Below, in pieces: positions 18,760 to 25,408 of a stretch of 32,038 nucleotides of DNA (positions within the stretch are counted from its first letter, which is position 1; every line of letters starts with the position of its first letter). This DNA comes from an uncultured Saprospiraceae bacterium (GTDB lineage Bacteria > Bacteroidota > Bacteroidia > Chitinophagales > Saprospiraceae), in assembly GCA_937924145.1 (NCBI GenBank), contig CALDTJ010000471.1, positions 1 to 32,038 of the forward strand, in the 5' to 3' direction. The notes below the pieces were generated by a model. It worked only from the letters and a program-made list of their open reading frames with translations. It was not told where the DNA came from and did no database searches. Made by a program: the position numbers and the translations under genes.

Positions 18760-21700
18760 TTAATTTTTAAAATAAAAAAGCTTTTCTCCAAAAGGCGGAT
18801 AATCGTCCACTATTATTTTTATGTAAAATATTCCACTAGCATAGCTAGATAAATCAATTTCTTGTTGAAAAGTCGTAATATTTCGTTTTTCTATTAAAAT
18901 CAATTCTTTCCCAATACCATCTAACAGAGAAATAGACACATCTACACTTTTAGCAAATTGAAGATCAAGAAAACTTATACTAGCCGTCGGATTTGGATAC
19001 AATTTAAAACTTTCTACTTCACTCAGTTCAACTATCGGATCACTAATATCTAAGGTTTGTTTTTGTCTTAATTCACATCCATTTTGATCTGTAACAATGA
19101 CATAATAATCTCCTAAAACAACTCCTGACACCACAGCATTCGTACCGATCACCCCATTATTCTCATTAAGCCACAGATAATTATATGGAGCCGTCCCTCC
19201 TATAATCGTGTCCACCCTTAAAGTCCCTCGATTAGACTGTTTATTAAAAGTAGAAGAAGTCTCAATACTATCAATCGTTAGTTCATTGGCAATCACCAAA
19301 TCATCCAGAATGACTTGACAATTATTGGCATCTTGAATAGTTACCCCATAATTTCCAGCAGCTAATCCATTGGCAGTATTCGTGGTAGAAATAATGATTC
19401 CCATTTCGTCTCGCCAAGTATAATTGTAAGAATTGGAAACACCACCAGAAACATCCAATCTGATAAAACCTTCACAATTAATTAAGTCGATTCTAGTACT
19501 ATCTACTTTGAGCAAAGGAGGAGATCGTAAAGTGATAGCATCCGTCATTTCAGCCCCATTGGCATCCGTTATGGTAACTGCATAATTACCTTGAGGCAAG
19601 TTGATCAAATTTTTAGTCGTATCACCTGTACTCCATAGATATTGATAAGGAGGTACTCCACAAATGACTTTCGCCTCTATAAAACCAGAATTATCATTAA
19701 AACAAGTCAAATCAGAAGTTAGTAAGTTGGCTTGTAAAGCTTCTACTTTGATGGCAATAGTCGTATCAAATCTTACCACACAGTTGTTCTGATCAGTAGC
19801 GGTCAAAGAATAATTACCAGGCAAAAGATTTTGTATAGATGCGGTAGTTGCACCATTATTCCAATCAAAAGTATAAGGGAATGTCCCTCCATCAAAATCA
19901 ATCATTATTTGCCCGCTATCATCCCCTACGCAGAGAGAGTCCGTAACAAAATTTGGTCTAATTTTAAAAGAATTGATAGGGGATAAAATCTCAGGGAATA
20001 ACTCTTCGCTTGACCAAGTACAGCCATTTGCATCTGTAACAGTTAAAGTATAGTTACCTGCAGTCAAATTGTCCACATCTTGAGTAGTTGCCCCATTGCT
20101 CCATAGATATTCATAAGGGGCCGTTCCTCCATTTGGTGTAATAAAAAATGCACCATTATTGTCATCAAAACAAGCTAATTCGTTGGTGAAATCATCTAAG
20201 CTAACAGAAATATCCCCTTCTGGCAATAAAGTCAAATCACCCAAATAACCCACACACAAATACTCATTGCTCTCATCCACCACACTCACATTATAAACAC
20301 CTTCACTCAATCCTTGTAGACTAGTCGAATCACCATCAATCACTTGGTCGCCATTATTCCAAAAATATTGATAAGTACCAAAACCGCCATTGACTTTGAT
20401 CGAAATTTCGCCATCATTGGTCCCTTCACAATTAGGATTATTCAAAGAAACCAGTTCAAGATCTAAACTGTCTTCTTCAAACTTAATTTCAAAAGATCGA
20501 ATCAATGTACACTCTGCACCGTCAGTAATAGAAACGGTATAAACGCCTGCATCCAAATCCGTTAAATCCTCGGTTAATAGTCCATTATTCCATTCAAAAT
20601 TAATCCCTCCTCTTCCTCCTGTCGCATTGATATCAATCAATCCATTTTCAGGATTAGAACAACTAACATCCCTAACTTCTGTCACCTCCAAATTAATTGG
20701 ACTAGAAGATTCGATATTAAAATTATAGGCAGGAGAGACACAGTTATTTACATCAATAATTTCTAGTTTATAATTTCCTCCATCAATATTTTGAAGAATT
20801 TCTCCCGCGGTTCTGACTATGCGATTATTTGGTAAGGTCCAGCTATAAGTATAAGGGGCAGTTCCACCTGAGATATTGGCAATCGCATTACCATCATTTT
20901 CACCAAAACAAGAAGGGGACTCTGCTAAGACCGTATCTATTTGCAAGAAATCTGGTTCAGTTATTTCAAAACTAGTATTCAAAACACAACCAATATTATC
21001 CATTATTTCTAGGTCATAATTACCTGCTGATAAAGTGGTATAATCGCTACTTAACCAAAAACCATTCAAATCATCAGCAATTAAGGTGCTATCCTGCCAA
21101 CGAAAAGAAAAACTATTTGCTCCTGCCGCTTCACTTTTTACTCGATAAAAGACCGATCCATTATTAGCATCTTTACATTGAATAGAATCAATGACTAAGA
21201 AATCTTCTATACTTACTAATTGCGGAGCCACCAATTGAGCAGTATCAGAAACAGAAATACAACCATTAGCATCTGTTACTTCGACAAAGTAATCCGTAGA
21301 ACTTAGGTTATCAATATTCGCGGTGGTGGCACCATTACTCCATGCATAATCGTAGGGGGCAACACCTCCATTTACAGTCGTTCCAAGCATACCATTCTCA
21401 ACACCCACACAAGTTGGTGCTTGTAAGGTTGAAAAAACAATATTCATTAACTCAGGGGCAGTTACGTTAATCGAATCAATTTGAAAATCACAATTATTTT
21501 CATCCGTAATCGTCACCTGATAGATGCCCGCACTAATTGAGGTCAGATTAGTCGTGGTTGCTCCATTACTCCATAAATATTGGTAAGTACCTGTTCCTCC
21601 ACTAACCACTAAATCAATTACCCCATCACTTATTTCTCTACACAAGGGCTGAGTAATAGTCGCTACGTCCGCTGTGATCGCCACAGGATCTACTAACGTT

Positions 21701-24700
21701 TCGCTACTAGTACTTTGGCAACCATTGGCATCCGTAACAGTTAGTGTATAAGTAGTCGCTTTTAGACCAAAAGCATTTTCAGTAGTTTGACTCAGGTCAT
21801 CATTCCATGCATAAGTGTATGGTGGAGTTCCGCCCGTAACAACTGCACTAATCTCTCCATCATCTTGTCCAAAACATTTTGGGTTTATAGGATTTAAGGT
21901 GATATTTAATTGAGGAGTTGGTTCAATAATTACCTGTTCTACAATGGAGCAATTTTTCGTGTCAGAGATGGTAACGTTATAAGTATTTGGCGATAAATTC
22001 TGCGGATTAGAAGTATTGGAAATTCCATTATCCCACGCAAAATTATAGTTACCTTCTATCGTCGGTGTCCCACCTGTAACTGCCAATTCTATTGCCCCAT
22101 CAGCCACATTTGCACAGCTTGGTGAGATCGCATTTTCGTTTAGAACAACTAGCATCTCGGGTTCGGTAATAACGATACTATCAATAGCACACGGAGCAAC
22201 ATTATCTGCATCAACAATCACCGAATAAACGCCGCCACTAAGTGCCGAAACATTTTGATTATTAGAAAAATCAGTTGTTCCATCACTCCATTGATAAGTT
22301 GGATTCACTAAACCACCTACATTTAAGGTGATTGTTCCATCACTTTGCCCAAAGCAAGTTACATCTGTAATTTCATTAATACCAAAATCAGGTCCATTCA
22401 CAACTTGCTGTGGAAGTGTTTTACTGCAACCAAAATTATCAGTCACGGTAATATTATAAGCACCTAATTCTAGATTTGAAATGGTATAATTATTAGTAGT
22501 AACATCATTTTCTATCCCTGAAACAGCCCCACTCCAATTATAATCATAAGGTGCCTGCCCATCTAAAGGATCGACTATTATAGCCCCATCTTCTTGACAA
22601 AAACTCGGCTCTTGAATATCAGTAACTTGAATGGAACTTATACTTGGTAAAGTGTGAATAACAATTCGATCCGTCGCTGAACAACCATTGGTTTGGGAAG
22701 TAACAGTCACATCAATCTCCTGTATAAAATCTTTACTCCGAGAAAAAATAATCGCTTCGTCACCTTGCGCCCCCGTACTCCACGTAAAATCGAATGGTCC
22801 TAGACCACCACCATTTTCTGTTGCTGTAATTAACTGAGGGTTACTTTGAAAACATAAATCCAATGTATCGCCTTGATTAATGGTAACGGAAGGGGTTGGT
22901 TGTTTAGAAAAAGATAGGGTCAATTCGTCAGTACACCCTGTAACGGATCTAGCTTGAATATAAAAAATCGAATCAGAAGAAATAGCAACTATTGGATTAG
23001 TAATTTGGGCATTAGCAGAATAAGAATCATTTGTAAAAAATAAAATAGTATCTGTAGCACTATTGGCATCTTGAATCACTAAAGTAGTTAAATCAAAAGC
23101 AGTATTTTCACAAACATTTTGATTACCAGAAGCATTAGTAATTTCTGGTTGAGGGTTGACAATCACCTCCACTGGAATAATATCACTTTCACAAGTCTGC
23201 CCTGAGAAGGTATTTGTTTCTTGGAAAAAATAAGTAGTCGTATCCGCTAATAAAGGGGTGATAAAAGTCATTCCTGAATCTAAAGGCATAGTCCCTGCCA
23301 TATTATCAAACCAATAAATTTTTCCTGCATTAGAAGGGTTAACTGTAATCATTGCCGTCTCTCCGCTACAAATTGGACTAACGGCAAATGTTGGATTAAA
23401 AATCACCTCATCATCCAAATCCCCATTACAATTTTCATCAATACCATTACAAGGAATTTCTACTGCATTTGGATTAATAGTAGCATCTGTATCATCACAA
23501 TCCAGTTTATTTGCCACGTAGCCCATAGGTTGAGCAGCAAAACAAACAGCAATAGAATCCATCGGATCTCCAAAGCCATCGTTATCCGTATCTGCATAAA
23601 AAATATCGCTCCCTTTCAATTGAGAACCATAAAAATTAATTCTATCTAATCCGATATCTCCTCTTACCCCAACTGCCGCTGAGATTCCACGAAAGCGAAA
23701 TTGTAAAACCATTCCATCATAAGCCGAAAGGTTAATGTATTGTCTAAACCATTCATTACCCTGATTTCCAGTCGCACTCCATAAGTTTACCCAATTTGTC
23801 CCATCAGTAGTAATTTCTAGAAACAAGCTATTAATATTATTACCAAACATGTGGTAGTAAAAAGACAAGTGACAAATGCCTGTACTTGCCTCCACCTGAA
23901 TACAGTCTGTCAATAAAATAGCTTCTTTATCTGGCCTACAAGAACTAGAGGATTCTAAATAGATATATTGACCATTCAAATTATCTGCATCATTACTTGG
24001 TCCAGTATTAGAACTGGCAGTTGAGCCACTATTAACAATCCAATCAATATCATCTGTTACTGAATTTTTCCAAACACCATCTACCGTTGGGCAATCAATA
24101 CAATCTCCACCATTTGAACCACAACCAACTTGATTATTAAAGTTCTCAGAAAGCGTCACTGGAGGCAATACACAATCTGTAGTAGCCGTAACTCTACAAG
24201 AATTATAAGCATAAGAAAAACCACTACAAATTTGTCGGACGTATATATCGTAAGCCGTCAATTGTTCAAGGTCAAATAAATCAAATTCCTCAACACAGTT
24301 TAAAACGACAACTTGACTATTAGGAGCGCCTGCGGTAGTTCCATTTCCTGGCGTAAATCCTTCGGGACCATATTCAACGACTACATTATTACATTGCCCA
24401 TTATTTATCCAACCTAGATCAATCGTTCTAGCCGTAATATTAAACGCTTCTAAATCTGTAGGAGCAGGACAGCCTAGCGGAATAAAAGATAATTCTACAA
24501 ATTCTAGAGAACCTATATCTCCAAATTTATCATCACAAACCTCCAATGTCCATATCGCATTAGGATTAAATGGAGTTGCTAGATTAAAATTTGAAAATGG
24601 TTCTTCGGGAATAAAAGTCCCTATGGTTTGTGTGCTAGAAGCAATATTTTTTACAGAATCTGTACTACAAGGAGTATTTGCCAATATAAAAGGTGTCGAA

Positions 24701-25044
24701 CAAGTAGTATCAAGAGGATCACCATAATGATCGCTCGCCCCACCTCTTTCACTAATTAATTTAACTTCTGTATTTCCATCAGGCGAGATCAAGGTAACTT
24801 GTAAATCATTTCGCCATCTATGATCAATAATCAATTTAATCTCATTTAGAAACACATCTTGACCTAATTGGCTACCAGGGGCATCACTAATGGGAATAGA
24901 TACCTGCACACAATTATTGTCAGGAATATTAATAGCTAAATTGCAATCTCCGTTATTTATGACCACTTGTCCACTTAGTATTGCGAAAGGGCAACACCAT
25001 AAGAACAAAAGTAAAATCGGTTTAAGAATACTCAATATTTTCAT
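18760..25044 (-). CDS. Giant SprB-repeat adhesin with T9SS sorting domain
   Basis: A cell-surface protein of 2,094 residues from the ATG at 25044 (10 more from 25074, which would start inside the upstream MITE). Order by pattern: signal peptide (ILKPILLLFLWCCPFAILSG); proprotein convertase P-type domain (about 30-195, with NLAINIPDNNCVQVSIPI and DHRWRNDLQVTLISPDG); fibronectin III-like strand set (about 200-290); MAM/jelly-roll domain (about 310-480); calcium-binding DTDNDGFGDP and CDDTDATINPNAVEIPCNGI (about 490-555); Ig/PKD-like region to about 800; about fifteen SprB repeats of 75-90 residues (about 800-2010), each with a Cys, a GG-x-PY-x-Y-x-W core and an x-ITDxNGC end; and a type A C-terminal sorting domain (FKLYPNPTASISFLDL). 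SprB is the gliding adhesin of Flavobacterium. This is likely a surface adhesin exported by T9SS; its ligand is unknown. Confidence 0.9.
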   Translation of the reverse strand: MKILSILKPILLLFLWCCPFAILSGQVVINNGDCNLAINIPDNNCVQVSIPISDAPGSQLGQDVFLNEIKLIIDHRWRNDLQVTLISPDGNTEVKLISERGGASDHYGDPLDTTCSTPFILANTPCSTDSVKNIASSTQTIGTFIPEEPFSNFNLATPFNPNAIWTLEVCDDKFGDIGSLEFVELSFIPLGCPAPTDLEAFNITARTIDLGWINNGQCNNVVVEYGPEGFTPGNGTTAGAPNSQVVVLNCVEEFDLFDLEQLTAYDIYVRQICSGFSYAYNSCRVTATTDCVLPPVTLSENFNNQVGCGSNGGDCIDCPTVDGVWKNSVTDDIDWIVNSGSTASSNTGPSNDADNLNGQYIYLESSSSCRPDKEAILLTDCIQVEASTGICHLSFYYHMFGNNINSLFLEITTDGTNWVNLWSATGNQGNEWFRQYINLSAYDGMVLQFRFRGISAAVGVRGDIGLDRINFYGSQLKGSDIFYADTDNDGFGDPMDSIAVCFAAQPMGYVANKLDCDDTDATINPNAVEIPCNGIDENCNGDLDDEVIFNPTFAVSPICSGETAMITVNPSNAGKIYWFDNMAGTMPLDSGMTFITPLLADTTTYFFQETNTFSGQTCESDIIPVEVIVNPQPEITNASGNQNVCENTAFDLTTLVIQDANSATDTILFFTNDSYSANAQITNPIVAISSDSIFYIQARSVTGCTDELTLSFSKQPTPSVTINQGDTLDLCFQSNPQLITATENGGGLGPFDFTWSTGAQGDEAIIFSRSKDFIQEIDVTVTSQTNGCSATDRIVIHTLPSISSIQVTDIQEPSFCQEDGAIIVDPLDGQAPYDYNWSGAVSGIENDVTTNNYTISNLELGAYNITVTDNFGCSKTLPQQVVNGPDFGINEITDVTCFGQSDGTITLNVGGLVNPTYQWSDGTTDFSNNQNVSALSGGVYSVIVDADNVAPCAIDSIVITEPEMLVVLNENAISPSCANVADGAIELAVTGGTPTIEGNYNFAWDNGISNTSNPQNLSPNTYNVTISDTKNCSIVEQVIIEPTPQLNITLNPINPKCFGQDDGEISAVVTGGTPPYTYAWNDDLSQTTENAFGLKATTYTLTVTDANGCQSTSSETLVDPVAITADVATITQPLCREISDGVIDLVVSGGTGTYQYLWSNGATTTNLTSISAGIYQVTITDENNCDFQIDSINVTAPELMNIVFSTLQAPTCVGVENGMLGTTVNGGVAPYDYAWSNGATTANIDNLSSTDYFVEVTDANGCISVSDTAQLVAPQLVSIEDFLVIDSIQCKDANNGSVFYRVKSEAAGANSFSFRWQDSTLIADDLNGFWLSSDYTTLSAGNYDLEIMDNIGCVLNTSFEITEPDFLQIDTVLAESPSCFGENDGNAIANISGGTAPYTYSWTLPNNRIVRTAGEILQNIDGGNYKLEIIDVNNCVSPAYNFNIESSSPINLEVTEVRDVSCSNPENGLIDINATGGRGGINFEWNNGLLTEDLTDLDAGVYTVSITDGAECTLIRSFEIKFEEDSLDLELVSLNNPNCEGTNDGEISIKVNGGFGTYQYFWNNGDQVIDGDSTSLQGLSEGVYNVSVVDESNEYLCVGYLGDLTLLPEGDISVSLDDFTNELACFDDNNGAFFITPNGGTAPYEYLWSNGATTQDVDNLTAGNYTLTVTDANGCTWSSEELFPEILSPINSFKIRPNFVTDSLCVGDDSGQIMIDFDGGTFPYTFDWNNGATTASIQNLLPGNYSLTATDQNNCVVRFDTTIAIKVEALQANLLTSDLTCFNDNSGFIEAKVICGVPPYQYLWSTGDTTKNLINLPQGNYAVTITDANGAEMTDAITLRSPPLLKVDSTRIDLINCEGFIRLDVSGGVSNSYNYTWRDEMGIIISTTNTANGLAAGNYGVTIQDANNCQVILDDLVIANELTIDSIETSSTFNKQSNRGTLRVDTIIGGTAPYNYLWLNENNGVIGTNAVVSGVVLGDYYVIVTDQNGCELRQKQTLDISDPIVELSEVESFKLYPNPTASISFLDLQFAKSVDVSISLLDGIGKELILIEKRNITTFQQEIDLSSYASGIFYIKIIVDDYPPFGEKLFYFKN

Positions 25045-25058
25045 AAAAGGTATTTCAG

Positions 25059-25166
25059 TATGCTGTGGGTGCATTTCATTTTTTCACTTTTTTTATTGAA
25101 CCCATCCTTAATCCTTCCCTTGAAAAAGGAAGGAATGGCGAAAAAATGAAATGCACCCTATGCTGT
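25059..25166. mobile_element. 92-bp MITE with 8-bp target duplication
   Basis: GGGTGCATTTCATTTTTTC (25067-25085) is repeated perfectly in inverse at 25140-25158, giving 19-bp terminal inverted repeats around a 92-bp element. A second hairpin, TCCTTCC/GGAAGGA, lies in its middle. TATGCTGT occurs directly on both sides (25059-25066 and 25159-25166), an 8-bp target-site duplication that shows insertion by a transposase acting in trans. No coding capacity. It sits 22 bp upstream of the adhesin start codon. The parental insertion sequence family is not identified. Confidence 0.88.
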
Positions 25167-25408
25167 TATTGCTATGGCAGAAAAAATCAATCCATAAATT
25201 ATTTTGGACAATCAAAGCCCTTTTTCTAATTGAAAATTATGGATATGAGGCAGTAAATCGTAAAGATAGGTAACTTGGAAGAATCTAAAATTTGAAGGAG
25301 TTGTAGCTCCTGTATTGTAAAAATATTAAAATATTGCCTTACTTCGCAATAGATTTGTGTCTATCGCTTATCAAAATCAAATTATTTTTATAAATCAATA
25401 ACGATATT
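25167..25408. other. Intergenic region between divergent genes
   Basis: With the MITE it separates the adhesin (minus) and the amidohydrolase lipoprotein (plus). No gene is visible. Read leftward, TATCTTTA (25268-25261) is a one-mismatch -7 box that could serve the adhesin. No firm promoter for the plus-strand gene is seen. Confidence 0.4.

Follow-up and report, generated by a model that had tools for sequence, protein, structure and literature searches.

What is a short inverted-repeat element, flanked on both sides by the same 8 bp, doing directly ahead of the start codon of a very large adhesin gene? The question is raised by a 32,038-nt stretch of contig CALDTJ010000471.1 from an uncultured Saprospiraceae bacterium, referred to here as the window. 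The initial annotation of this DNA, made from the sequence alone, took the element for a complete MITE of recent insertion that probably forms part of, or displaces, the promoter or leader of the adhesin gene and could switch or tune its expression. Three matters are involved: whether the element is a MITE at all, what moves it, and what its position means for the adhesin and for promoters in general. The features on which the argument turns are collected in Table 1.

Table 1. Positions in the window of the element, its duplications and the neighbouring features.
Feature	Position	Strand	Basis or remark
SprB-repeat adhesin with type IX secretion sorting tail	18760–25044	-	PF13573, E 7.8e-108; PF18962, E 2.2e-14
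Left 8-bp target duplication, TATGCTGT	25059–25066		Exact repeat of the right copy
MITE, 92 bp, non-coding, fold-back almost complete	25067–25158		Inverted-repeat search, BLAST, folding, comparison of copies
Left terminal inverted repeat, GGGTGCATTTCATTTTTTC	25067–25085	+	Equal end adjoins an ISKra4 transposase gene in G106
In-frame ATG from the element; adhesin frame 2,094 to 2,104 residues	25072–25074	-	ORF and start-region reading
Right terminal inverted repeat, minus-strand copy of the left sequence	25140–25158	-	Comparison of the arms
Right 8-bp target duplication, TATGCTGT	25159–25166		Exact repeat of the left copy
Candidate adhesin promoter TTG-N21-TATTTTTA, a conserved promoter-like site lying upstream of the element	25318–25349	-	Equal spacing in G006, G007 and G004
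Divergent amidohydrolase gene, PF07969	25409–27118	+	Profile match; anchor for finding orthologous intergenic regions

The element, its sister copies and its insertion site

The arms of the element are 19 nt long, 100% complementary and separated by 54 nt, and the exact duplication on either side bears out the complete MITE with perfect target duplication that had been proposed. Most of the marks by which MITEs are recognised are present: small size (92 bp), terminal inverted repeats (TIRs; 19/19), no coding capacity, a target-site duplication both here and, at 8 bp, at sister copies, and multiple dispersed copies in the own genome and in relatives. When the 19-mer end was searched with up to 3 mismatches, the window contained two matches, both of them ends of the element, with 0.04 expected, and none of the shuffled windows gave two. 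Taken as RNA, the 108-nt unit of element plus duplications has a predicted fold of -44.8 kcal/mol (z -8.1).

Lack of any other copy had been named as a result that would speak against a MITE. BLAST of the organism's own assembly (7.0 Mb, 654 contigs) with the element returned 23 matches, resolving into about 16 copies, which fall into size classes of 88–92 bp and 127–130 bp with like ends. Nine of the other copies keep 8-bp duplications, eight of them exact and one at 7/8; those read from the flanks include TATTTTAG (contig C87), CTTATTTT (C208), AATATTTT (C654), CTATTTTA (C467), TAGAATTT (C503) and TAAAAATT (C526). All 14 of the own-genome copies analysed are intergenic, nine of them between divergent genes. 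Because the other copies adjoin unrelated genes (among them those for NDK, CvpA, a PorP/SprF protein, SdpI and a nucleotidyl transferase), adhesins are no special target. The adhesin link looks incidental.

The longer size class (C467, C503, C526, C528, C511 and C137) carries an extra CCGTCCGCTTTGCGGGTCAGGAG...CTCC insert within the common ends. In addition, some longer intergenic palindromic repeats without these ends (C99:3471-3611, and others in G011 and G006) are similar to the inner palindrome ACCCATCC...CCTTCCCTTGAAAAAGGAAGG, and the interior of the MITE may, judging by this resemblance, be a captured intergenic repeat.

At the insertion site, 22 bp separate the element from the adhesin ATG at 25044. 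The in-frame ATG at 25074 sits in the TIR, and the initial annotation was right to call the longer frame that begins there a product of the element. It adds ten residues, MHPQHTEIPF, after which the frame proceeds at 25044 with a normal signal-peptide-like start, MKILSILKPILLLFLW; since 25074, within the TIR, only prepends these residues to that start, 25044 is likely the real one. On C526, too, the SdpI-family neighbour apparently gains an upstream start codon (MKCTLK...) from its MITE copy, a parallel to the adhesin frame in the window.

A comparison with relatives that lack the element had been suggested, and three congeners (G006, G007 and G004) provide it. Their amidohydrolase orthologues are 84–87% identical, the adhesin is syntenic, and in all three (3/3) the intergenic region between the two genes is without the element; G006 keeps GGTATTTCAGTA right up to the insertion point. 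An exact single-copy TATGCTGT empty site was found in none of these three regions, because the congeners' intergenic sequence has diverged. Since the syntenic intergenic regions lack the element, the insertion between the SprB-type adhesin and amidohydrolase genes is taken to be later than the split from these sampled congeners, or else to have been lost from each. The window copy is a genuine, recent and ordinary MITE insertion directly 5′ of the gliding-type adhesin, as had been claimed.

A family in Saprospiraceae and its probable mobiliser

A 30-mer scan of the contigs of a one-genome-per-species collection gave no match; the 20-mer end pattern, GGGTGYATTTCATTTTKTCG, then gave 98 stretches. 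Among the matches listed (80 of the 98), 79 titles name Saprospiraceae and one an unclassified Bacteroidia MAG. With at most one mismatch the 20-bp end is present in 19 of 298 Saprospiraceae genomes, and its reversed control in 0. The genomes richest in elements are G189, G246 and G313, which belong to one genus, and G021. In eight congeners of the window genome the 17-bp end has no exact counterpart, and neither the viral contigs nor the plasmids searched contain anything that truly matches the element or the IS end. The elements of the family are mostly 88–374 bp long and non-coding, with varied interiors under constant ends and with 8-bp duplications that include exact ones. The family is new, in that no description of it was found in the papers searched. 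G021 holds many elements of about 174 bp with asymmetric ends, GGGTGTATTTCATTTTGTCG and GGGTGCATTTCAAAATGTCG (L364-L442), and many of its contigs end about 121 bp inside such a copy.

Because the MITE itself encodes nothing, longer elements with equal ends were sought, and three genomes supplied informative cases. In G106, a transposase frame ends in TAA and is directly followed by CGAAAAAATGAATTGCACCC, which matches the MITE end in reverse complement at 19/20; the transposase, in two pieces, matches NF033572 (E 1.8e-18 and 3e-25). A contig of G154 has, as a right end, GGGGGCATTTCAAAATATCG followed by the decayed C-terminus of an ISKra4-type transposase (NF033572, E 6.2e-36), and two contigs of the same genome, read by eye, have the MITE end, here as a left end, followed by an ORF that starts MTKEEYLKLCE or MTKEEYMKLCE. 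G195 contains a 369-bp element with ends of equal kind that retains the first ~63 codons and the last 19 codons of the transposase, the N-terminal piece being 67% identical over 42 aa to the G106 protein; this internal deletion reads as an intermediate between IS and MITE. The pieces score 124, 67 and 89 bits against an NCBIfam cut-off of 205, which they miss because they are fragmentary. The genomes examined yielded no IS with these ends that is both complete and intact, the ISs of G106 and G154 being truncated or decayed, and around the TIR-like sites of the own genome, the loci covered there, no autonomous IS was found. The search for an autonomous IS with the same ends that had been suggested thus gave transposase-linked ends in two genomes. 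By sequence, the MITE is very probably mobilised by an ISKra4-family transposase.

Several other candidates were tried and rejected. IS1595 is not represented in the own genome, and elements of this type in the family Saprospiraceae end in GGTAACTATATA, GGCAATGACTAACC or similar; the ISL3 element of the own genome ends in GGTTCTTTGACAATTTTTGCAAA, unlike the MITE. A 921-bp TIR pair in G021 (L103), at first sight an autonomous IS, contains no frame long enough for a transposase and is read as a set of separate short elements, and the recurrent ORFs that adjoin TIRs are repeats or host genes, for example those for acyl-CoA dehydrogenase-like proteins. A GTGTGTATTTCAAAATGCAC repeat in G106 has no transposase within the stretch seen. 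The same genome has a repeat starting GTGTGTATTTCAAAATGCACAAAAAGGC at several contig ends (L308, L313, L318, L324 and L329), which probably marks another multi-copy mobile element. In G154 (L183:4150-4451), the ORF of one ISKra4-type copy seems, by eye, to be broken after some 15 codons, where a sequence starting GTAACTGTTTAGG sets in that may be an IS66-type end.

The proposed parentage agrees with what is known of the p-MULT elements, whose inverted repeats measure 18–39 bp and whose duplications are 8–9 bp (PMC3942029). The ISKra4 group (p-MULT 4) has repeats of 18–39 bp with a conserved terminal C and direct repeats of 8 or 9 bp; the MITE family has ends of 19–20 bp with GGG/CCC at their outer limits and duplications of 8 bp, and in relatives matching ends lie beside ISKra4-type transposase genes. 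Symmetric ends are also shared, and the flanks in the discovery set and in G189 and G313, though not those in G021 or of the window copy, point to the promoter-upstream insertion, with either end and at like geometry, that is reported for some members of the group (PMC3942029). Unlike that group, the window element has no transposase, and the promoters concerned are of the Bacteroidota -33/-7 type, with a box at only part of the insertions. TnGBS and ISLre2 (p-MULT 3) elements keep a set spacing to sigma-A promoters, inserting 15–17 bp upstream of the -35; they belong to Firmicutes, as ICEs and ISs whose insertion is oriented, whereas the MITE family is non-coding and may face the promoter with either end (PMC3942029). 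Among Bacteroidota, short non-coding TIR elements are also described from Cardinium, there credited to a parental IS, although that parent is IS982 (PMC9769881), and from Porphyromonas gingivalis (PMC4596501).

Two other accounts of the element's origin have to be weighed. A different transposase family (IS1595, ISL3, IS256 or another) with GG-starting ends and 8-bp duplications might move it, and the facts that IS1595-type elements within Saprospiraceae also make 8-bp duplications and that the ISKra4 copies found with MITE ends are all broken would suit such a view; however, the IS1595 and ISL3 elements that were found end differently, while the MITE ends adjoin ISKra4-type genes in two genomes and flank an internal deletion in a third, and we regard another mobiliser as very improbable. 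That the element is a static, REP-like palindromic repeat and no product of transposition can be given almost no credence: the likeness of its inner part (CCATCC..CCTTCCCTTGAAAAAGGAAGG) to longer intergenic palindromes has to contend with ends that are exact, with unrelated sequences duplicated over 8 bp at many sites, with interiors that vary under constant ends, and with ends linked to a transposase. With an ISKra4-family mobiliser preferred, the MITE would be non-autonomous and moved in trans by a Mutator-like DDE transposase that would recognise the ~20-bp ends GGGTGYATTTCATTTTTTCG and make the 8-bp duplication. Such an enzyme would favour AT-rich intergenic sites, often with a Bacteroidota -7 box 37–39 bp beyond the end of the element.

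Promoter positions and the adhesin leader

The sigma-A promoter of Bacteroidota consists of a -33 TTTG and a -7 TANNTTTG (PMC6847099, PMC9723704), and ISs of the ISKra4 group with near-symmetric repeats are reported to choose sites upstream of such promoters, which may lie beyond either end, the -35 being some 16 bp away (PMC3942029). In a discovery set of 210 non-redundant element ends read outward for TANNTTTG, the box starts 37–39 bp out at 11 ends, whereas in 1000 rotation controls the best-filled 3-bp window held at most 8 boxes, with a mean of 4.4. A -10-like box at this distance puts the -35/-33 near 15–16 bp, which matches the published value. The first independent set, 86 ends from G021, gave 1 such box against 0.29 expected and did not confirm the offset. 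A second set, made up of 79 ends from contigs of G189 and G313 that were fetched later and from which all earlier flanks had been removed, gave 9 against 0.61 expected (by our own arithmetic, a Poisson probability of ~2 in 10^8); these two genomes had supplied most of the discovery hits, such that the replication is one of new sites and not of new species. A -33 TTG is weakly enriched, being present at 13–17 bp in 6 of the 20 combined hits vs 24 of 270 others. The flanking sequences suggest that the family prefers sites a fixed distance upstream of promoters, a preference that recurred at new sites of two genomes but was not confirmed in G021. That an ISKra4-type transposase places Saprospiraceae MITEs in this way, with a constant spacing to the Bacteroidota sigma-A promoters downstream of them, is in our judgement rather likely.

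Since there is no TANNTTTG at 37–39 bp on either side of the window copy, this insertion is not demonstrably promoter-targeted. Both strands of the element were scanned and the -7 box is absent from it, while the one conserved promoter-like site of the adhesin, its best promoter candidate, lies upstream, with its -7 starting at 25325. Most likely, then, the element sits in the adhesin leader, between the conserved promoter-like site and the ATG; of the earlier alternative, promoter or leader, the leader half survives by inference and the promoter half is not supported. Across at least five congeners, a block around the candidate promoter, TTGTAAAAATATTAAAATATTGCCTTACTTCGCAA (25315-25349), stands out within the adhesin/amidohydrolase intergenic region by its strong conservation amid diverging surroundings. 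It also includes a small TTGC...GCAA dyad, and could serve either gene as a promoter or regulator site. As part of the leader, the element would add 100 nt and a strong hairpin ending 22 nt before the ATG, as well as its in-frame upstream ATG. The predicted fold of the 291-nt leader preserves the element hairpin and leaves the start region largely open. The effect on adhesin expression is probably neutral to mildly negative, and the strong hairpin may contribute to it.

Might the element nevertheless serve the adhesin as a regulatory module and switch or tune expression through its hairpin or mobility? Its nearness to the ATG, the strong hairpin, the upstream ATG that arises from it and the influence of leader structure on translation in F. 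johnsoniae (PMC6847099) would all fit, but other copies stand beside unrelated genes, the same adhesin is present in congeners that lack the element, the element brings no promoter, the start region is mostly unpaired in the predicted leader, and there is no sign of excision. A regulatory module is therefore unlikely, and the switching or tuning originally envisaged finds no support. Doubt of another kind concerns the family-level offset, which might be a mere consequence of an intergenic, AT-rich location, given that copies lie between genes and that G021 shows no clear peak. This is highly improbable: the peak is 3 bp wide, appears in the outward direction only, surpasses every one of the 1000 rotation controls and is seen again in fresh flanks, and the two N positions of the -7 box are never G in the 20 combined hits, as in the mapped F. 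johnsoniae promoters TAHHTTTG (PMC6847099). Taken together, a MITE mobilised by an ISKra4-family transposase, with a promoter preference at the level of the family, a likely leader position in the window and a probably neutral to mildly negative effect on the adhesin, is a reading that we hold with high confidence.

Overall, the family is of more interest than the copy in the window, in that its parent group can be named from relatives and the offset has held on fresh data from two genomes. Promoter-upstream targeting would be extended to non-coding elements and to the divergent promoter of Bacteroidota, and a direct test is opened of whether Mutator-like transposases locate promoters via RNA polymerase or sigma, or via DNA sequence. 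If the placement is as proposed, the transposase finds promoters even where their consensus is strongly unlike TTGACA/TATAAT, and the MITEs of Saprospiraceae would mark promoter positions across the genome and would time and again give rise to variation upstream of promoters.
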